Below, piece by piece: positions 53,814 to 62,161 of a stretch of 64,000 bases of DNA (its first letter is position 1; every line of letters starts with the position of its first letter). The translations under genes were made by a program, and so were the position numbers. Location of the stretch: assembly GCA_030657355.1 (NCBI GenBank), contig CP131057.1:579501-643500 (forward strand), written 5' to 3'. The stretch is from Radicibacter daui (GTDB taxonomy: Bacteria; Pseudomonadota; Alphaproteobacteria; Radicibacterales; Radicibacteraceae). Below the pieces are notes generated by a model. That model did no database searches, was not told the origin of the DNA, and saw only the letters and a program-made list of their open reading frames with translations.

Positions 53814-54611
53814 TTATCCCTGCCAGAGTCGCTTCAGGTCGAACTTCGCCATGTCCTGGCAAAGCTCGATGAAGTTCTTCGCTTCCAGATCGATCACCGC
53901 CTTGCCCTTTTCGGCTGTGGCGATGCTGGCGTCACCGACGGTGCCGGCGAGGTTCAGGTCCTGCGCCTGCCAGCCGATGGGCACGGTGCCATGGGCGCGC
54001 AGATGTTTGAAATCGCGGATGAAGTCGCTCTGCGTCGATTTGAAGTCGATGGCGTGTTCCAGCTTCACCAGATCCGGCCGGAAATGCAGCATCATCGAGG
54101 TTTCGATGTCACCGCCATGGATGCCGACCCGCAGCTCCTCTTCCGAGAACATGCCTTCCGGCAGGCCAAGGCGCGTCCAGGCTGTTGGCACCACCATCAT
54201 GCCGTGGCGTACACGCAGCTCGCGCGCCACCACATCAAGGATCGGCACATTGCCGCCGTGGGAATTGATGAGGATGAGTTTTTTGACGCCGGCGCGATAG
54301 ACACTTTCCCCCAGTTCGATCAGCAGCTGCGTCAGCGTCTGCCAGGAAAGGGTAAGCGTGCCCGGAGAGGCAATATGCTCATTGGATTTGCCCACCGCCT
54401 GATCGGGCAGGAAGGTCACCGGCAGGTCCGCGGGCAGCAGCTCCAGCACGCGGCTTACCATGCCACGGGCAATGCAGGTGTCGGTATAGACCGGCAAATG
54501 CGGCCCGTGCTGCTCGATGGCGCACACCGGCAGCACGGCAATCCAGCCGCTGGTGTCATTATCCGCGAAGTCCCGCGTGGTCATTTCGTGCCAGTAGCGC
54601 TTGGGCAGCAT
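53814..54611 (-). CDS. Creatininase-family amidohydrolase
   Basis: This 265-residue metal-dependent amidohydrolase has the two metal-site segments VCAIEQHGPHLPVYTD and LILINSHGGN, with the further ligand E175 in HGGDIETSMM. The family opens cyclic amides such as creatinine or formylated pyrimidines. It is convergent with the hydrolase terminator and lies downstream of the RidA gene, 45 bases apart on the same strand. It forms a divergent partner of the cytosine-deaminase importer operon and probably opens a ring or formamide formed there. Confidence 0.9.
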   Translation of the reverse strand: MLPKRYWHEMTTRDFADNDTSGWIAVLPVCAIEQHGPHLPVYTDTCIARGMVSRVLELLPADLPVTFLPDQAVGKSNEHIASPGTLTLSWQTLTQLLIELGESVYRAGVKKLILINSHGGNVPILDVVARELRVRHGMMVVPTAWTRLGLPEGMFSEEELRVGIHGGDIETSMMLHFRPDLVKLEHAIDFKSTQSDFIRDFKHLRAHGTVPIGWQAQDLNLAGTVGDASIATAEKGKAVIDLEAKNFIELCQDMAKFDLKRLWQG

Positions 54612-54656: not shown

Positions 54657-55055
54657 TTATGCGCCCGCCAGCGGCGGGGCGGCGGCCAGCACTTCCACCT
54701 CGACCAGAAATTCCGGCCGGGTAAAGCCGGTGACGATCATCAGTGTGGAGGCTGGCGGCGGGCTGCCGGTAAAGCGGTCACGCGCCGCCATATACCCTTT
54801 CATATGCTCGCGCGCCGTCACATAGGCATTGATGCGCACCATGTCGCCGAGCCCCATGCCAGCGGATTTCAGCACCGCCTCGACATTGCGGAAACACAGC
54901 TCCGTCTGCGCCTCAACCCCTTCGGGGATCTGATCTTCCGGCGAAATGGCAAGCTGGCCCGAACAGAGCAGCATTCGCCAGCCGGGCGGAACTTCAACGC
55001 CATAGCTGTAGCGGCCAAAGGGCGGGCGGATATCGGGCGGGGTCAGATGGCGCAT
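54657..55055 (-). CDS. RidA-family enamine/imine deaminase
   Basis: This 132-residue protein is of the YjgF/YER057c/UK114 (RidA) family, which hydrolyses reactive enamines or imines or acts within pyrimidine catabolism (RutC). It shows the family's VRINAYVTAREH strand, with the arginine that binds carboxylates. The late FLVEVEVLAA contributes to the active-site cleft of the trimer. The ATG at 55055 is chosen over a longer start at 55148 because it gives the usual length. It is followed by the creatininase-family gene. The upstream region is shared with the sigma-54 promoter. Confidence 0.85.
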   Translation of the reverse strand: MRHLTPPDIRPPFGRYSYGVEVPPGWRMLLCSGQLAISPEDQIPEGVEAQTELCFRNVEAVLKSAGMGLGDMVRINAYVTAREHMKGYMAARDRFTGSPPPASTLMIVTGFTRPEFLVEVEVLAAAPPLAGA

Positions 55056-55411
55056 GGCGGCTCGTACCGGCGGCGAGGATTTGGATTTGCCAGACACTAG
55101 GCCCGGCTTCCGACCGCTTGCAAGCGCCTCTGGCGGACTTTTGGGCACTGCCGCTTCCCGCGCCAGCAGGTGCCCATTTTTTATTCATGACTAGACAAAT
55201 AGGACGAGTGTCCATAGCGGGATTCAATGCCGTTCTGCGGGCCATGCCGCGACGCAGCATCTGGCACACCTCTTGCGCCTCATGACGTCTGTTGACCTTG
55301 CCGGGAGGGGGCATCCTGCCCGCCGGCGCATCCATCGCAAGCAGCCCCGGGGCCGGCTGAAACCGGCCAGACAGAAACGAGGGCTCGAACAGTCAAGAGG
55401 CGGAGAAAAAC
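55056..55411. other. Divergent regulatory region for the heterocycle locus
   Basis: These 356 bases separate the RidA gene from the THI5-like importer. Apart from the sigma-54 promoter and an AT-rich stretch near 55180, I see no gene. An activator site and a promoter for the RidA-creatininase side should also be here but were not recognised. Confidence 0.55.
55262..55276 (+). promoter_or_regulatory. Sigma-54 (RpoN) promoter
   Basis: TGGCAC (55262-55267), five bases, then TTGC (55273-55276) match the sigma-54 consensus TGGCACG-N4-TTGC in sequence and spacing. The -24 GG and -12 GC are separated by exactly ten bases. It points to the importer gene at 55412, giving a leader of about 124 bases. 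Confidence 0.72.
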
Positions 55412-56446
55412 ATGAAATTGTTGAAGCCCGTTTCCGGTCAACCGCTCGTGAGCAAGCCCGTTATCGCCGCGCTCATCAGCGCCGTGGTGACCGCGGGCAT
55501 GGCCATGCCTGCCCTGGCGCTGGACAAGGTCAAGTTCGGCACCAACTGGCTCGCCGAGCCGGAGCATGGCGGTTATTACCAGGCCGTGGCCGATGGCACC
55601 TACGCCAAGTACGGGCTCGATGTGACCATCGTGCCGGGCGGCCCGCAGGCGGCCAACCGCCAGCTGCTGCTCGCCGACCAGATCGACTTCTATATGGCGG
55701 GTGACCTGCTCGGCTCCCTCTCCGCGCTGGAGCAGGACATTCCGGTGGTCGAGGTTGCGGCGATCTTCCAGAAAGATCCGCAGATGCTGATGGCCCACCC
55801 GGATACCGGCATCGAGAAATTCACCGACCTTATCAAGGTGCCGTCGATCTTCATGGGCAAGGACGGTTATGCCTCCTACTTCCAGTGGATGAAGGCGGCC
55901 TTCCCGGGCTTCAGCGATGCGCAGTACAAGCCCTATACCTTCAACGTCGCCCCCTTCCTGGCCGACAAGAACTCGGTCCAGCAGGGTTACGTGACCTCCG
56001 AGCCGTTTGCGGTTGAAACCCAGGGCGGCTTCAAGCCCAAGATCTTCCTGCTCGCCGACCAGGGCTGGGGCACCTATTCCACCCTCATCGAGGCCAAGCT
56101 GCCCTTCGTGCAGCAGAAGCCCGAGCTGGTGCAGCGCTTCGTCGATGCCTCCATCATCGGCTGGTACAACTACCTCCATGGCGACAACAAGGCCGCCAAC
56201 GAAGCGATCAAGAAAGACAATCCGGACATGACGGATGAGCAGATCGCCTTCTCGCTCAAGACGATGAAGGAATTCGGTCTGGTTGAATCCGGCGATGCGC
56301 TGAAGGGCGGCATCGGCTGCATGACCGACGAACACGTCAAGACCTTCTACGACCAGATGGTCACCGCCGGCGTCATCAAGGCGGGCGGCGATTACAAGAA
56401 GGTCTTCACCAGCCAGTTCGTCTGCAAGGGCGTCGGCATGAAGTAA
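55412..56446 (+). CDS. ABC transporter substrate-binding protein, NMT1/THI5-like
   Basis: This 344-residue periplasmic protein has a signal peptide (cleaved near residue 36 in MAMPALALDKVKFG) and the NMT1/THI5 fold that binds pyrimidines, nitrate-like or aromatic nitrogen compounds. Typical stretches are LAEPEHGGYYQAVADGTY near the start and LLLADQIDFYMAGDLLG. The ATG follows AGAGGCGGAGAAAAAC and a sigma-54 promoter. It is the first gene of the importer with the ATPase and permease that follow. A pyrimidine-like ligand is inferred from the cytosine-deaminase-type hydrolase downstream. Confidence 0.93.
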   Translation: MKLLKPVSGQPLVSKPVIAALISAVVTAGMAMPALALDKVKFGTNWLAEPEHGGYYQAVADGTYAKYGLDVTIVPGGPQAANRQLLLADQIDFYMAGDLLGSLSALEQDIPVVEVAAIFQKDPQMLMAHPDTGIEKFTDLIKVPSIFMGKDGYASYFQWMKAAFPGFSDAQYKPYTFNVAPFLADKNSVQQGYVTSEPFAVETQGGFKPKIFLLADQGWGTYSTLIEAKLPFVQQKPELVQRFVDASIIGWYNYLHGDNKAANEAIKKDNPDMTDEQIAFSLKTMKEFGLVESGDALKGGIGCMTDEHVKTFYDQMVTAGVIKAGGDYKKVFTSQFVCKGVGMK

Positions 56447-56461
56447 CGACCTTCCGGGGCA

Positions 56462-56522
56462 CCCCGCCCGGTACGGCACGAGCGCCCTTGAGAGCGCGGC
56501 ATCGGCCGGGCGGGGATTTTTT
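56462..56522 (+). terminator. Hairpin with T-run after the binding-protein gene
   Basis: CCCCGCCCGG (56462-56471) pairs with CCGGGCGGGG (56506-56515) over a loop that can fold internally, followed by a run of T to 56522. It is a partial terminator between the binding-protein and ATPase genes. Confidence 0.72.
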
Positions 56523-56582
56523 CCGGGAGCCTTCCTCCCGGGACATTTTCAAGGTTCCCTTACGAGATCGGGTCTCAAGGAC

Positions 56583-57401
56583 GTGACATTCACCGCCTCC
56601 CCCGCCGGCATGCCGGCGCCGGCCCGGCCGCTGGTTTCCCTGCGGTCAGTCTCCAAAACCTTCTCCAACGGCACGCTTGCCCTCGAGCACATGTCGCTCG
56701 ATATCGGGCAGGGAGAGTTCGTCAGCCTGCTCGGGCCCTCGGGCTGCGGCAAATCCACGGCGCTGCGCATCATCGCCGGCCTCGGCGCCCCCTCCTCCGG
56801 CAGCCTCGACTGGCCGACCAGCATGCATGACGCCACCGGCAAGGCCGAGCCGGAGGTGAGCTTCGTTTTCCAGGAACCCACCCTGATGCCGTGGGCAACG
56901 GTTTACGAAAATGTCTGGCTGCCGCTGCGCCTGCGAGGCATCAGCAAGAAGGCTGCCGCCTCCGACGTGCGCGAGGCGCTTGCCATGGTGGGCCTCGAAA
57001 AATTCGAGACCGCCTATCCGCGTGAGCTTTCCGGCGGCATGAAGATGCGCGTTTCCATCGCCCGCGCCCTCGTCACCCGGCCGCGCCTCCTGCTGATGGA
57101 CGAGCCTTTTGCCGCGCTTGACGAGATCACCCGCTTCAAGCTCAACAACGACCTTCTTACCTTGTGGGAGAAGTTCGGCTGGACGGTCATCTTCGTCACC
57201 CATTCGGTGTTCGAGAGCGTCTATCTCTCAAGCCGCATCGTGGTGATGGCCGCAAGGCCCGGCCGCGTTTTCACCGACATGGGGGTGGAGGCACCCTATC
57301 CGCGCGGCGATGAATTCCGCACCAGCACCGTTTATAATGATTGCTGCCGCCAGGCATCCGACGCGCTGGATGCGGCCATGAACGCGAGTGTTCCGGCATG
57401 A
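56583..57401 (+). CDS. ABC transporter ATP-binding protein (nitrate/pyrimidine type)
   Basis: This 272-residue ATPase has Walker A GPSGCGKST, signature LSGGMKMRVSIARAL and Walker B LLLMDEPFAALDE, characteristic of the SsuB/TauB/ThiZ group. The GTG start at 56583 is 61 bases after the T-run of the hairpin. It overlaps the permease gene by four bases (ATGA). It energises uptake of the ligand of the THI5-like binding protein. Residues around FVFQEPTLMPWATVYENV are the typical Q-loop region. Confidence 0.94.
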   Translation: MTFTASPAGMPAPARPLVSLRSVSKTFSNGTLALEHMSLDIGQGEFVSLLGPSGCGKSTALRIIAGLGAPSSGSLDWPTSMHDATGKAEPEVSFVFQEPTLMPWATVYENVWLPLRLRGISKKAAASDVREALAMVGLEKFETAYPRELSGGMKMRVSIARALVTRPRLLLMDEPFAALDEITRFKLNNDLLTLWEKFGWTVIFVTHSVFESVYLSSRIVVMAARPGRVFTDMGVEAPYPRGDEFRTSTVYNDCCRQASDALDAAMNASVPA

Positions 57402-58261
57402 GCGAGATCCTGCCCGCCCCCGCCAGCAGTGCGACCTCCTCCGGCAGCGGTTTCCGCCGCGCGCTCGGCCTCGTCTTTTCGCCCACGCTGGTGCGCATCC
57501 TCGTGCCGGTTTTGATGCTCTTCCTGCTGCTGGCGGTCTGGCAGTGGTATGTCGTCGCCCACAAGGTGCCGCCCTATATCCTGCCCTCGCCCGTTCTGGT
57601 GGCGAATGCGCTGGTGAAGGACTGGCCGATCCTGGGCGCCGCGCTGGTCGTCACGCTCAAAATCACCTTCACCGCCCTTATCCTGGCGCTGGTGGGCGGT
57701 GTGGCGCTTGCCATCCTTATCTCCCAGTCGAAATGGGTGGAGCTGGCGATCTACCCCTATGCCGTTATCCTTCAGGTCACGCCCATCGTCGCCATCTCGC
57801 CGCTCATCATCATCTATACGCCCAGCACGCAGGTAGCCCTGCTCATCTGCGCCTGGATCGTCGCCTTTTTCCCTGTGCTCTCCAACACGGCGCAGGGGCT
57901 TAAATCGACCGACCACAATCTGCTCAATCTCTTTGAGCTTTATCGTGCCAGCCGCTGGCAGACCCTGTTCTGGCTCAGGATCCCGGCGGCCCTGCCCTAT
58001 TTCCTTGCCGGCCTGCGCATTGCCGGCGGCCTTGCGCTGATCGCCGCGGTGGTAGCCGAGTTTGCCGCCGGGTCCGCCGGCTCCGGCTCGGGCCTCGCCT
58101 TCCGCCTGCTGGAAGCGCAGTTCCGCCTCAATATCCCGCGCCTCTTCGCTGCCCTTATCCTGCTGTCGGTCACGGGCGTGCTGATCTTCTTTGCCACCAG
58201 CCTCGTTTCCCATTTGCTGCTCCGCAAATGGCATGAAAGCGCCCTGCGCCGGGAGAATTAA
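57398..58261 (+). CDS. ABC transporter permease (SsuC/ThiX type)
   Basis: This 287-residue inner-membrane permease of the nitrate/sulfonate/taurine/pyrimidine group has about six membrane segments. The coupling loop reads LYRASRWQTLFWLRIPAALP, and GLRIAGGLALIAAVVAEFAA is typical of the family. The ATG overlaps the ATPase stop (ATGA). The following hydrolase gene begins five bases after its stop. A single permease gene implies a homodimeric channel. Confidence 0.93.
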   Translation: MSEILPAPASSATSSGSGFRRALGLVFSPTLVRILVPVLMLFLLLAVWQWYVVAHKVPPYILPSPVLVANALVKDWPILGAALVVTLKITFTALILALVGGVALAILISQSKWVELAIYPYAVILQVTPIVAISPLIIIYTPSTQVALLICAWIVAFFPVLSNTAQGLKSTDHNLLNLFELYRASRWQTLFWLRIPAALPYFLAGLRIAGGLALIAAVVAEFAAGSAGSGSGLAFRLLEAQFRLNIPRLFAALILLSVTGVLIFFATSLVSHLLLRKWHESALRREN

Positions 58262-58266
58262 GACAA

Positions 58267-59589
58267 GTGATTGATTTTGTGCGCATTCCCGACGCAAGAC
58301 GCTACCGCCTTGCCAATGCCACCGCCCCGGCCTCCTGCCTTCCCGCCGCCCTTGCCACCTCTGGCGGCGCCGGCGGGCTGACGGGCATCGACCTTATCGT
58401 CGATGGTGCGATGATAGAACGCATCACCCCGGCGGGCGGTACGGCCTCGGAAGACCTGCCGACGGTCGATCTTGATCGTGGCATGGTGTGGCCGGCCTTC
58501 GTCGACATGCACACCCATATCGACAAGGGCCATATCTGGCCGCGCAAACCCAACCCGGATGGCAGTTTTGAGGGGGCGCTGAACGCGGTAGGTGCGGACC
58601 GCGAGGCACGCTGGAGCGCCAGCGATGTTGCCCGCCGCATGGATTTTTCCCTGCGCTGCGCCTGGGCCCATGGCACCCGCCTGCTGCGCACGCATCTGGA
58701 CAGCCTTGCCCCGCAGCACGGCATTTCCTGGCCGGTTTTCTCGGAAATGCGCTCGCAGTGGAAAGGCCGGGTCGATCTGCAGGCCGCCTGCCTCGTTCCC
58801 ATCCATTTCATGGTCGATGATGCCTTCTTTGCCGACATTCTCGGCACGGTAAAGCGCCATGCCGGCGTGCTGGGCGCCGTCACCTTCATGGTGCCGGAGC
58901 TGGATGCCGGGCTCGACCGCATGATGAAGGCCGCCACCGAAGCCGGTCTCGATCTCGATTTCCATGTCGACGAGACGCGCGACCCCTCGGCCCGCTCGCT
59001 GCGCCATATTGCCGATGCGGCACTGCGCAACCATTTCACCGGGCATATCACTGTCGGCCATTGTTGCTCGCTTGCCATGCAGGGCGAGATGGAGGCCGAG
59101 CGCACGATGGATCTGGTGGCCAAGGCCGGCATCTCCGTCGTCTCCCTGCCCATGTGCAACATGTATCTGCAGGACCGCGTGGCCGGCCGCACCCCGCGCT
59201 GGCGCGGCATTACCCTGCTGCATGAACTGAAGCAGCGCGGCGTTACCGTTGCCGTTGCCTCCGACAATACACGCGACCCGTTCTACGCCTATGGCGACCT
59301 CGACATGGTCGAGGTTTTCCGCGAAGCAGTGCGCATCTGCCATCTCGACCACCCCTTTGGCGACTGGCCCTCCATCGTTACCGCCAATCCTGCCATCATG
59401 ATGCGCCGGCCCGATTGCGGCCGCCTGCGCCCGGGCGCCGGGGCCGACCTTGTGCTGTTCCGCGCCCGCGGCTGGTCCGAACTGCTGGCCCGCCCGCAGG
59501 CCGATCGCGTGGTGGTGCGCGAAGGCCGCGCCATTGACCGTACCCTGCCCGATTACCGGGAACTCGACGATCTGATGGATGTCGCGTGA
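58267..59589 (+). CDS. codA: Cytosine-deaminase-like amidohydrolase
   Basis: This 440-residue amidohydrolase of the CodA type has metal-site residues H82 and H84 in VDMHTHIDKG, H233 in DFHVDETRDP with the catalytic E236, H265 in TVGHCCSLAM and D333 in VAVASDNTRDPF. These are the cytosine deaminase positions, although other N-heterocycles are possible. The start is a GTG at 58267 just after the permease stop. It ends in a one-base overlap with the FAD oxidase gene. It deaminates the imported heterocycle and probably feeds the FAD oxidase. Confidence 0.88.
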   Translation: MIDFVRIPDARRYRLANATAPASCLPAALATSGGAGGLTGIDLIVDGAMIERITPAGGTASEDLPTVDLDRGMVWPAFVDMHTHIDKGHIWPRKPNPDGSFEGALNAVGADREARWSASDVARRMDFSLRCAWAHGTRLLRTHLDSLAPQHGISWPVFSEMRSQWKGRVDLQAACLVPIHFMVDDAFFADILGTVKRHAGVLGAVTFMVPELDAGLDRMMKAATEAGLDLDFHVDETRDPSARSLRHIADAALRNHFTGHITVGHCCSLAMQGEMEAERTMDLVAKAGISVVSLPMCNMYLQDRVAGRTPRWRGITLLHELKQRGVTVAVASDNTRDPFYAYGDLDMVEVFREAVRICHLDHPFGDWPSIVTANPAIMMRRPDCGRLRPGAGADLVLFRARGWSELLARPQADRVVVREGRAIDRTLPDYRELDDLMDVA

Positions 59590-60995
59590 TGACTGACCTG
59601 ACCGCCCTCAAGGCCGCTCTCGATGGCATCGAGATGGAGGATAACCCCCGCCTCGTGAAGCAGAAGAGCCGCGACTTCTTCTGGTATTCCCCCATCCTTA
59701 AAGAGCAGCTCGACCATGTGAGCGGCGAGCTGCTGGTGACCCCGCGCACCGAGGCCGAGGTTATCCGCGTGCTGAAGGCCTGCTTCGAGCTTGGTGTGCC
59801 GGTTACCCCGCGCGGCTCCGGCACCGGCAATTACGGGCAGGCCATGCCGCTGTCGGGCGGCGTGGTGCTCAGCCTGTCGGCGATGAACGCCGTCAAGGAA
59901 ATCGCCCCCGGTCGCGTGCTGGTGGAAGCGGGCGCCCTGCTCTCCAAGATCGATATCGCCACCCGCGCCCATTCCGGTCAGGAGCTGCGCCTGCACCCTT
60001 CCACCTACAAGACCTCCACCGCCGCCGGTTTTGTCGCCGGCGGCTCGGGCGGTGTCGGCTCCATCCGCTGGGGGGGCCTGCGCGATCTTGGCAATGTGCT
60101 GAAGCTGCGCATCGTCACCATGGAAGCCGAGCCGCAGATCATCGAACTGACCGGCGAGGAGGTACAGAAGGCTGCCCATGCCTATGGCACCAACGGCATC
60201 ATCACCGAGGTCGAGCTGCCGCTGACCGCTGCCTATGACTGGCAGGACGTGCTGATCGGCTTTGACAATTTCGAGGCTGCCGCCCGGTTCGGCGATGCGC
60301 TCGGCAATCAGGACGGCATGCTCCTCAAGGAGATCGCCCCCATCGCCGCGCCGGTGCCGCATGATTATTTCCTGAAGCACCAGCGCTTCATCCGCCGCGA
60401 CCAGTCCGTCGTCATCGTGATCGTCGCGCCGCATTCCATGGATGCGCTGATGGCCTTCACCCGCCGCCACAAGGGCGAGGTGCTTTTCCGCACCGATACG
60501 GCAACGGCGGAGGAAAAGCGTGGGTTGCCGCCGGCCTATGAGCTGGCCTGGAACCACACCACGCTGCTCGGCCTGCGTGTCGATCCCACCATCACCTATC
60601 TCCAGGTGCTCTACCCGTTCCCGAACCAGATCGAGCGGGCGATGAAGATGGTGAAGATCTTCGGCGACGAGGTGCCGGCCCATCTCGAATTCGTGCGCTT
60701 TGACGGCAACATCACCTGCTTCGGCCTGCCCATCGTGCGTTACACCACCCCCGGGCGGCTGGAGGAGATCATCCGCATCCACGAGGATAATGGCTGCCCG
60801 ATCTTTAACCCGCACCGCTACACGCTGGAAGAAGGCGGCATGAAGCAGACCGACGAGGTGCAGTTGGCCTTCAAGCGCCAGGCGGACCCCAAGGGCCTGC
60901 TTAATCCGGGCAAAATGATCGGCTGGGAAAATCCCGATTTCGATTTTTCGAGCCAGACGACCTATCTCTTCCCCGGCCTCAAGGCGGCGGGCTGA
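59589..60995 (+). CDS. FAD-binding oxidase, glycolate/D-lactate oxidase (GlcD) type
   Basis: This 468-residue flavoprotein has a PCMH-type FAD domain. The conserved PRGSGTGNYGQAMPLSGG lies at about residues 78-95, STAAGFVAGGSGGVGSIRWG follows, and a C-terminal cap domain ends NPGKMIG. The ATG at 59589 overlaps the last base of the deaminase stop (TGATG). It is translationally coupled to the deaminase, so it probably oxidises the deaminated product or an intermediate. The electron acceptor and substrate are unknown. The flavodoxin-fold gene follows after 41 bases. Confidence 0.88.
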   Translation: MTDLTALKAALDGIEMEDNPRLVKQKSRDFFWYSPILKEQLDHVSGELLVTPRTEAEVIRVLKACFELGVPVTPRGSGTGNYGQAMPLSGGVVLSLSAMNAVKEIAPGRVLVEAGALLSKIDIATRAHSGQELRLHPSTYKTSTAAGFVAGGSGGVGSIRWGGLRDLGNVLKLRIVTMEAEPQIIELTGEEVQKAAHAYGTNGIITEVELPLTAAYDWQDVLIGFDNFEAAARFGDALGNQDGMLLKEIAPIAAPVPHDYFLKHQRFIRRDQSVVIVIVAPHSMDALMAFTRRHKGEVLFRTDTATAEEKRGLPPAYELAWNHTTLLGLRVDPTITYLQVLYPFPNQIERAMKMVKIFGDEVPAHLEFVRFDGNITCFGLPIVRYTTPGRLEEIIRIHEDNGCPIFNPHRYTLEEGGMKQTDEVQLAFKRQADPKGLLNPGKMIGWENPDFDFSSQTTYLFPGLKAAG

Positions 60996-61036
60996 CCCGG
61001 AAATCCGGCAAAGGGCGAAGGAGACGGAGGCAGCAG

Positions 61037-61618
61037 ATGCGTGTTCTGGTGATCTTCGCCCATCCGGTGGCTGAAAGTTTCGGCGGTGCGCTTCACCGCA
61101 CGGTGGTGGAAGCGCTGACAGCTGCCGGCCACGAGGTCGATGACTGCGACCTTTATGCCGAGGATTTCCAGCCGGTGCTGACCCGGCAGGAACGGCTCGA
61201 CTATCACAATCTCGCGGCCAACCGGCAGCCGGTGGAAAGTTACGTGCAGCGGCTGGAGCGTGCCGAGGCGCTGGTGCTTGTGCACCCGGTCTGGAACTAC
61301 GGCTTCCCGGCCATCCTCAAGGGCTATTTCGACCGGGTGTTTCTGCCCGGTGTTTCCTTCAAACTGGAGAACGGCGCCGTCTCGCCCAATCTCCAGCACA
61401 TCACAAAACTGGCCGCTATCGTCACTTACGGCGGCACCCGCTGGCGCACCTTCCTGATGGGCAACCCGCCCCGGCGCCTTTTCATGCGCATGCTGCGCGC
61501 GCTGGTAAAACCCTTCGCCCCGGTAAAATTTCTGGCGCTCTATGACATGAACAATGTGGGCGAAGGGCAGCGGCAGGCTTTTCTGGAACAGGTGCGCAGG
61601 CAAATGGCAAACTTCTGA
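61037..61618 (+). CDS. Flavodoxin-fold NAD(P)H dehydrogenase (quinone) family protein
   Basis: This 193-residue protein starts with the flavodoxin-fold strand MRVLVIFAHPVAESFGG, with the FMN/FAD phosphate loop after the first strand. It contains LVHPVWNYGFPAILKGYFDRVF, typical of NQO1/KefF-like quinone reductases. The ATG follows GGAGACGGAGGCAGC. It lies 41 bases after the FAD oxidase and is probably part of the same transcript. It may recycle the acceptor of the oxidase. The sigma-54-driven operon therefore contains import, deamination, oxidation and electron-transfer functions. Confidence 0.88.
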   Translation: MRVLVIFAHPVAESFGGALHRTVVEALTAAGHEVDDCDLYAEDFQPVLTRQERLDYHNLAANRQPVESYVQRLERAEALVLVHPVWNYGFPAILKGYFDRVFLPGVSFKLENGAVSPNLQHITKLAAIVTYGGTRWRTFLMGNPPRRLFMRMLRALVKPFAPVKFLALYDMNNVGEGQRQAFLEQVRRQMANF

Positions 61619-61654
61619 GAGGCAGATGCCGCAAGCCGCCCAGAGGGTTCCAGC

Positions 61655-62161
61655 GTGCCGACACTTGTTTCTTTTTCGGGGCTTCCTGGGACCGGAAAAA
61701 GCACAATAGCCCGCCAGCTTTCGGCAAGGACGGGGGCCGTCTATCTGCGGATCGACGAAATAGAGGTCGCCATTCTGGCACTTAACCCCGGGCAGGAGGC
61801 GGGGCCGGAGAGTTATCAGATCGCGGCTGCGCTTGCCGCCTCCAATCTGGAGCTGGGGCACACCACCATCATCGACTGCGTAAACCCGTGGGACGTTACG
61901 CGCGAGCTTTTCACTTCTGCCGCCACACGAGCGGGCACCCATTTGCTGCGCGTGGAAATCCTCTGCTCCGACACGCGGGAGCACCGGCGCCGTGTTGAAA
62001 GCCGGGAAGCCGATATCCCCGGCCTGATCCAGCCCGACTGGCAAAAAGTGCTCAACCGCAGTTACTCCCCCTGGCTTGAGGCAGAGCTGAGGATTGATAC
62101 GGCATCCACATCGGCAGACCACGCCGTTGCCGCCATCGCAGCGCGCTTGGGAGACTGGTGA
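61655..62161 (+). CDS. P-loop kinase, AAA_33/zeta-toxin-like
   Basis: This 168-residue P-loop phosphotransferase has Walker A GLPGTGKST at about residues 7-15. The motif AVYLRIDEIEVAI and an Arg-rich lid (REHRRRVESRE) are typical of small-molecule kinases of the AAA_33/zeta family. The start is a GTG at 61655 preceded by CAGAGGGTTCCAGC. It is 36 bases after the flavodoxin-fold gene and may belong to the same transcript. There is no partner antitoxin gene, so a toxin role is unlikely. The substrate is unknown. Confidence 0.82.
   Translation: MPTLVSFSGLPGTGKSTIARQLSARTGAVYLRIDEIEVAILALNPGQEAGPESYQIAAALAASNLELGHTTIIDCVNPWDVTRELFTSAATRAGTHLLRVEILCSDTREHRRRVESREADIPGLIQPDWQKVLNRSYSPWLEAELRIDTASTSADHAVAAIAARLGDW

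Follow-up and report, generated by a model that had tools for sequence, protein, structure and literature searches.

A sigma-54 promoter combined with an upstream NtrC site is a well known type of switch, and its use before an importer-deaminase operon, as described here, is a new case. Excerpts of one published account place hydrolases acting on C-N bonds, as well as urea and nitrate importers, under NtrC control (PMC5343134). A 2025 survey, also cited from excerpts, predicted sigma-54 control in the Proteobacteria for COG0715/COG0600/COG1116 importers and COG0402 deaminases; in these excerpts such importers are described as nitrate transport, and the operon and NtrC site reported here are not treated (PMC12316311). 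No description of the present operon was found among the literature matches listed. In Sinorhizobium, an NtrC motif of the form TGC-N11-GCA with an A/T-rich centre was defined by EMSA and footprinting. According to excerpts of the same source, such an NtrC site is present in glnII promoters and in that of S. meliloti nfeR1, where NtrC acts as a repressor and no sigma-54 element is involved (PMC10746234). The site in the window (the whole 64-kb stretch of DNA that was analysed) resembles this motif, but one of its half-sites is TCA and a sigma-54 element follows the box. In the same genome, the promoters of urtA, nirB and an nrtA-like gene (our label for an NMT1_2 binding protein beside nirB) have an exact TGGCAC-N5-TTGC with a 17-bp A/T-rich palindrome upstream, as in the window. 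The glnB promoter shares the palindrome but has TGGCAC-N5-GTGC, and that of glnK differs from the window in having TGGCAC-N5-TTGA and weak NtrC matches. The NtrC promoters of this genome and of the class serve nitrogen genes, whereas the target in the window is an importer-deaminase operon, putatively for a heterocycle.

The features of the locus are collected in Table 1. The importer and deaminase genes presumably belong to COG0715/COG0600/COG1116 and COG0402, respectively. The Rid gene was taken to begin with the ATG at 55055; as listed, its frame extends to 55148. The hairpin between the first two genes of the operon has 10-base arms (56462-56471 and 56506-56515) and a predicted fold of -38.5 kcal/mol (z -1.38), which is only modestly better than shuffles, 17 of 200 being as good; it was not found in a simple search of 18 orthologues. 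With its T6 behind the first gene, it makes transcription through to the ATPase gene uncertain, and the genes beyond it may be expressed less than that of the binding protein.

Table 1. Coordinates of genes and predicted regulatory features at the importer-deaminase locus
Feature	Position	Strand	Basis
Creatininase-family hydrolase	53814..54611	-	Pfam Creatininase
Divergent Rid-family gene	54657..55055	-	Pfam Ribonuc_L-PSP
Possible second, weak NtrC site TGGCGGACTTTTGGGCA (tentative)	55131..55147	.	8.8 bits, eighth best of window
Putative NtrC box (enhancer) TGCCCATTTTTTATTCA, centre 55179	55171..55187	.	Top matrix match in window, 20.8 bits
Sigma-54 -24/-12 promoter element TGGCACACCTCTTGC	55262..55276	+	Exact match, orthologue conservation, de novo recovery
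Predicted transcription start	55288	+	Inferred from -12 position (12 bases past C of -12 element)
Importer periplasmic substrate-binding protein (NMT1/THI5-like)	55412..56446	+	Pfam NMT1 76.3 bits, cut-off 20.5
Possible partial terminator: GC-rich hairpin then T6, in the gap between the genes for binding protein and ATPase	56462..56522	+	Sequence
ABC transporter ATPase	56583..57401	+	Pfam ABC_tran
ABC transporter permease (longest frame; later true start possible)	57341..58261	+	Pfam BPD_transp_1
Amidohydrolase, NCBIfam 'cytosine deaminase' PRK07583	58267..59589	+	670.7 bits, cut-off 403
FAD-binding oxidoreductase	59586..60995	+	Pfam FAD_binding_4
Flavodoxin-fold oxidoreductase	61037..61618	+	Pfam Flavodoxin_2

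The sequence-only reading had placed an exact TGGCAC-N5-TTGC with -24/-12 spacing 135 bases before the importer gene, and this was confirmed. The element TGGCACACCTCTTGC has GG at 55263-55264 and GC at 55275-55276 with 10 bases between them, the importer ATG (55412) lies 135 bases beyond it, and it sits in the divergent intergenic region between the Rid and importer genes. Compared with the consensus TGGCACG-N4-TTGCW, taken from an excerpt of its source (PMC3538637), it shows two deviations, both at less conserved positions: A for G after TGGCAC, and G for W after TTGC. It is the only exact match in the window. Because 0.24 matches are expected by chance and at least one was present in 21 of 100 shuffles of the window, the element alone is not significant in 64 kb; the looser pattern TGGC-N7-TTGC is at chance level (5 observed, 5.36 expected). 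Its significance comes from the genome-wide excess of such sites, its intergenic position, its conservation in orthologues and the NtrC box at enhancer distance. Transcription from the predicted start would give a leader of 124 bases. An Rfam scan of 55000-55450 returned no family above cut-off, and thus no riboswitch match in the leader, and the leader fold was no better than that of shuffles.

Across the genome, which has a single copy of rpoN, TGGCAC-N5-TTGC was matched 22 times, against 6 times for the reversed control pattern. Twenty stretches were taken to cover the 21 other sites, of which an automatic reading assigned 14 to sequence not covered by a long reading frame and 7 to the interior of such a frame. 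One of these seven, at L115 before a gene of the 5-formyltetrahydrofolate (5-FTHF) cyclo-ligase family, lies outside the frame if a later ATG is the start. Genes downstream of or overlapping the sites in the 20 stretches scanned include urtA, nirB, the nrtA-like gene, pspA, flgB, flgE and flgH, a typical set of sigma-54 genes. Genes less obviously of this kind are found at other sites, among them rpe and those for a GGDEF protein, a radical-SAM protein, an agmatinase and a sugar permease.

Conservation was assessed at 109 orthologous loci. This genome was the only one found in searches of the genus, family and order, and relatives were therefore drawn from genome contigs (80 loci, the best 80 of 186 relatives) and from a class sample (29 loci besides that of this genome, listed from 81 matching genomes of 385 searched). 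The divergent gene belongs to the Rid family at 48 of the 109 loci. Within -300 to +60, TGGCAY-N5-TTGC was present at 43 of the 109, while both the reversed pattern and the same pattern on the minus strand were found at 0/109. Thirty-eight of the 43 loci belong to one clade, Mesorhizobium or near, and the other five to Roseibium, Faunimonas, Oricola (two) and one further genome, so that with the window only a few independent lineages carry the strict pattern. A graded score of at least 12.5, a threshold chosen after the scores were known, was reached at 44 of 48 divergent-Rid loci (6 of 10 outside Mesorhizobium), at 1 of 27 divergent-LysR loci (Rhizobium, Martelella and relatives) and at 10 of the 34 remaining loci, one of which (L054) had no valid upstream region; in 327 control sequences the 95th percentile was 11.9, the 99th 12.9 and the maximum 13.3. 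Sites at the loci with neither a Rid nor a LysR gene are mostly CGGCAY-N5-TTGCT, TGGTAY-N5-TTGC or GGGCAT-N5-TTGC. A de novo EM run of width 16 on 44 chosen upstream regions recovered tGGCAtggg..TTGCt with an LL of 109.3, against 47.8-53.8 in three shuffles. The distance from element to gene differs between lineages, which argues for selection on the element. Its conservation upstream of part of the orthologues and its de novo recovery support, at the level of sequence, the earlier proposal that it is a sigma-54 promoter.

No gene for an enhancer-binding protein (bEBP) was found within up to 8 kb of the operon at 80 loci (best 80 of 186 relatives), a search made with four of the six bEBP sequences of this genome as queries, several of the contigs being short. 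This points to a global activator, and an NtrC box was therefore derived from other genes. The source was the promoters of the PII genes nearest to the genome's own glnK in class genomes (30 loci listed, 205 of 289 genomes matching); of 31 such promoters 25 were used, two from this genome and four near-duplicates being left out. In palindromic runs, width 17 reached a likelihood of 141.8, against 89.4 and 99.0 for widths 16 and 18; the even-width palindromes were rejected, being other motifs that resemble pseudo-palindromes of the sigma-54 element. The resulting matrix is the 17-bp palindrome TGCcTAataatTAgGCA, which has the published TGC-N11-GCA form with an A/T-rich centre.

The sequence-only reading had suggested looking for an activator site upstream of the promoter, and the best match of this matrix in the whole 64-kb window is a putative NtrC box there, TGCCCATTTTTTATTCA, its 20.8 bits comparing with 12.3 for the runner-up and its centre lying 83 bp upstream of the -24 element. 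An A/T-rich stretch had been noticed by eye before the matrix was built; the training set excluded this genome. In nine of ten retrainings on random halves of the promoters the box ranked first; in the remaining one it was missed, the matrix having settled on a different motif that resembles the sigma-54 element. One half-site of the box is TCA, not GCA, so it does not fit the bare TGC-N11-GCA pattern, which occurs in the window at chance level (38 observed, 38.74 expected). The loose palindrome, with at most one mismatch, occurs at 42 places in the 5.06-Mb genome, TGCCCATTTTTTATTCA included, and its reversed pattern at 15. A possible second site, TGGCGGACTTTTGGGCA, lies 40 bp upstream of the first, and a spaced inverted repeat, TGGGCAC/GTGCCCA at 55142-55176, overlaps both matches. 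The enterobacterial NtrC dyad, GCAC-N7-GTGC, was rejected as a candidate, its best match upstream of the importer having 3 mismatches. In 23 chosen regions this dyad was not enriched (5 when up to one mismatch is allowed, against an expected 4.15); a variant with a gap of 10 was found 8 times against 3.25 expected, and urtA of this genome has one exact GCAC-N7-GTGC. A de novo run of width 12 found an A/T-rich motif whose best place in the window is the ribosome-binding region and not 55171.

Applied to other promoters of the genome, the matrix gave high scores for glnB (20.5), the nrtA-like gene (16.2), urtA (14.0, with two more NtrC sites) and nirB (13.5), and 21.4 for the ntr region. Scores did not exceed 4.9 at flgB, flgE, flgH, pspA, rpe, the GGDEF gene, an SsuA-like gene and most others. 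Intermediate values were obtained for an in-frame site at L120 (8.5), for an amidohydrolase gene (7.4), for the cyclo-ligase/importer operon at L115 (10.3) and for glnK, which at just 7.9 is the exception among the nitrogen promoters. The amidohydrolase gene (PRK12393) has an exact sigma-54 element upstream (L106:2016-2030), its NtrC match being weak. The SsuA-like binding-protein gene, which also has a sigma-54 element (L105:2077-2091), lies about 5 kb from the GAFTGA-type activator L095 and scores only 2.6 bits with the NtrC matrix, which suggests a local activator. A second NMT1-type importer operon of the genome (L192:1894-6232, G000:C1:3466293 onward) is headed by the cyclo-ligase-family gene; its element is TGGCACACGGTTTGC, and its NtrC-type match lies 90 bp upstream, almost the spacing in the window (91).

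Among 44 chosen importer upstream regions, 17 had an NtrC match beyond the 1% shuffle level, compared with 2 of 44 reversed sequences. The two boxes were then counted at 108 orthologous loci, L054 being skipped for too little upstream sequence, with an NtrC threshold of 9.2 (the 99th shuffle percentile, reached by 48 of 2160 shuffled regions). Both boxes were present at 43 of 48 Rid-type loci (38/38 of the Mesorhizobium type and 5/10 others), at none of 27 LysR-type loci and at 2 of 33 others, while an NtrC-type match was present at 46/48, 25/27 and 4/33, respectively; neither box was found at 22 of the 33 others. At all 45 loci with both, the NtrC box lies 60-138 bp upstream of the -24 element, as compared with 83 bp in the window. 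At the Rhizobium/Martelella loci (L010, L011, L013-L034, L036-L038) the divergent gene is a LysR regulator and a good sigma-54 element is absent in 26 of 27; at L016 the NtrC-type match is just upstream of the LysR start. When this LysR regulator was sought in the genome under study, the best match had 34% identity.

Some alphaproteobacterial NtrC proteins lack the GAFTGA loop and work with sigma-70, according to an excerpt of PMC10274813, and the NtrC of this genome was checked for this reason. It matches the TIGR01818 equivalog model with 741.8 bits (cut-off 558.6) and contains KGAFTGA, unlike the genome's NtrX, which has no GAFTGA. With the box at 83 bp upstream of the -24 element, this lends support to the NtrC-type activation first put forward from the promoter motif. 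We consider it about 88% probable that a working sigma-54 promoter drives the importer-deaminase operon under NtrC, a reading carried by the -24/-12 element and its conservation, the NtrC box, an NtrC with GAFTGA and one rpoN gene. Under nitrogen shortage, phosphorylated NtrC would bind the palindrome at 55171-55187, perhaps helped by the weak second site at 55131-55147, and would reach sigma-54 RNA polymerase at 55262-55276 by DNA looping. Its GAFTGA loop would open the promoter, transcription would begin near 55288, and the later genes would be co-transcribed past the hairpin. The encoded proteins would take up a small nitrogen heterocycle, probably an aminopyrimidine, and release ammonia from it by deamination; a ring-shaped nutrient is thus the probable source from which this bacterium scavenges nitrogen.

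The activator at the sigma-54 promoter could be a protein other than NtrC. The genome encodes six strong Sigma54_activat proteins, and two of them, L095 and L096, have GAFTGA/GAYTGA and match no equivalog above cut-off; either could serve the promoter, responding to the substrate or to some other signal, and the NtrC box would then be a coincidence or belong to the Rid gene. We regard this as unlikely, since all six activators are on another contig than the window, L095 lies about 5 kb from the SsuA-like gene, which carries a sigma-54 element itself, the four bEBP queries found no such gene next to the operon at the 80 loci searched, and the NtrC matrix has its best match in the window at 55171. 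A role for the box at the Rid gene is further opposed by the lack of a minus-strand TGGC-N7-TTGC near that gene. Somewhat less probable still is a mainly repressive role of NtrC, or its cooperation with a sigma-70 promoter, the sigma-54 element being weak or unused. Repression by NtrC at nfeR1 (PMC10746234, excerpt), the sigma-70-dependent NtrC proteins without GAFTGA (PMC10274813, excerpt) and the 25 of 27 LysR-type orthologues that keep an NtrC-type match without a good sigma-54 element would fit such an arrangement. However, the NtrC of this genome has GAFTGA, Rid-type orthologues have conserved the -24/-12 element, which is intact here, and a search for sigma-70-like promoters in 55000-61700 found 0 against 1.2 expected by chance.

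Being a 15-mer that fits a consensus of 10 fixed bases, TGGCACACCTCTTGC might be a chance match of the kind that the window shuffles yield; its conservation, its de novo recovery and an independently derived NtrC box at enhancer distance make this very improbable. Least credible is that the T-run at 55177-55182 is part of a terminator and not of an NtrC box. A short stem at 55160-55173 followed by T's was indeed flagged as terminator-like, one of 7 such in the region against 4.7 in shuffles, but the upstream Rid and creatininase genes are read in the other direction, which leaves no known transcript that would end there, and the 17-bp palindrome scores 20.8 bits. As far as the sequence can show, the activator is of the NtrC class.

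The nature of the substrate was approached through the proteins. The predicted structure of the binding protein has a mean pLDDT of 90.2 and is closest to 3ix1 (N-formyl-4-amino-5-aminomethyl-2-methylpyrimidine-binding protein), a thiamin-bound binding protein and Thi5. The best PDB folds for the model, the ThiY-type/Thi5 proteins 3ix1 and 4esx, have TM scores of 0.68 and 0.67 (query length) at 19% and 16% identity. These fold matches support a pyrimidine-class ligand without naming one, and unlike ThiY-type/Thi5 systems the operon in the window includes a deaminase and oxidoreductases. The designation 'heterocycle importer' is thus plausible, resting on the NMT1/THI5-like protein, the match of its model to ThiY-type proteins and the deaminase downstream. 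For the amidohydrolase, comparison was made with E. coli CodA, in which we take Gln156 and Asp314 to be substrate contacts, position 314 presumably being Asp in the wild type. In the alignment, the FPQEG stretch of CodA pairs with LVPIH of the window protein, so that Gln faces Pro, and Asn stands at position 314, where the CodA chain used has Ser. Neither contact is kept, a hint that the substrate may not be cytosine. The pterin deaminase Arad3529 (PMC9513972, excerpt) was considered as a possible counterpart of the amidohydrolase.

A tentative possibility, to which we give rather less than even odds, is that the locus represents an undescribed alphaproteobacterial nitrogen route, in which a ThiY-class aminopyrimidine, such as a thiamine breakdown product, would be imported and deaminated to supply nitrogen, instead of serving as a precursor of the vitamin. 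This route would be under NtrC/sigma-54 control in the Rid-type lineages, while in Rhizobium and Martelella a LysR gene would have taken the divergent position, the NtrC-type box being kept in most loci. Independently of the first motif, the analysis assigns the operon to the nitrogen-starvation regulon, which directs the search for its substrate to nitrogen sources. A usable alphaproteobacterial NtrC matrix was also obtained, which in this genome tells most nitrogen promoters apart from the other promoters of the sigma-54 type.
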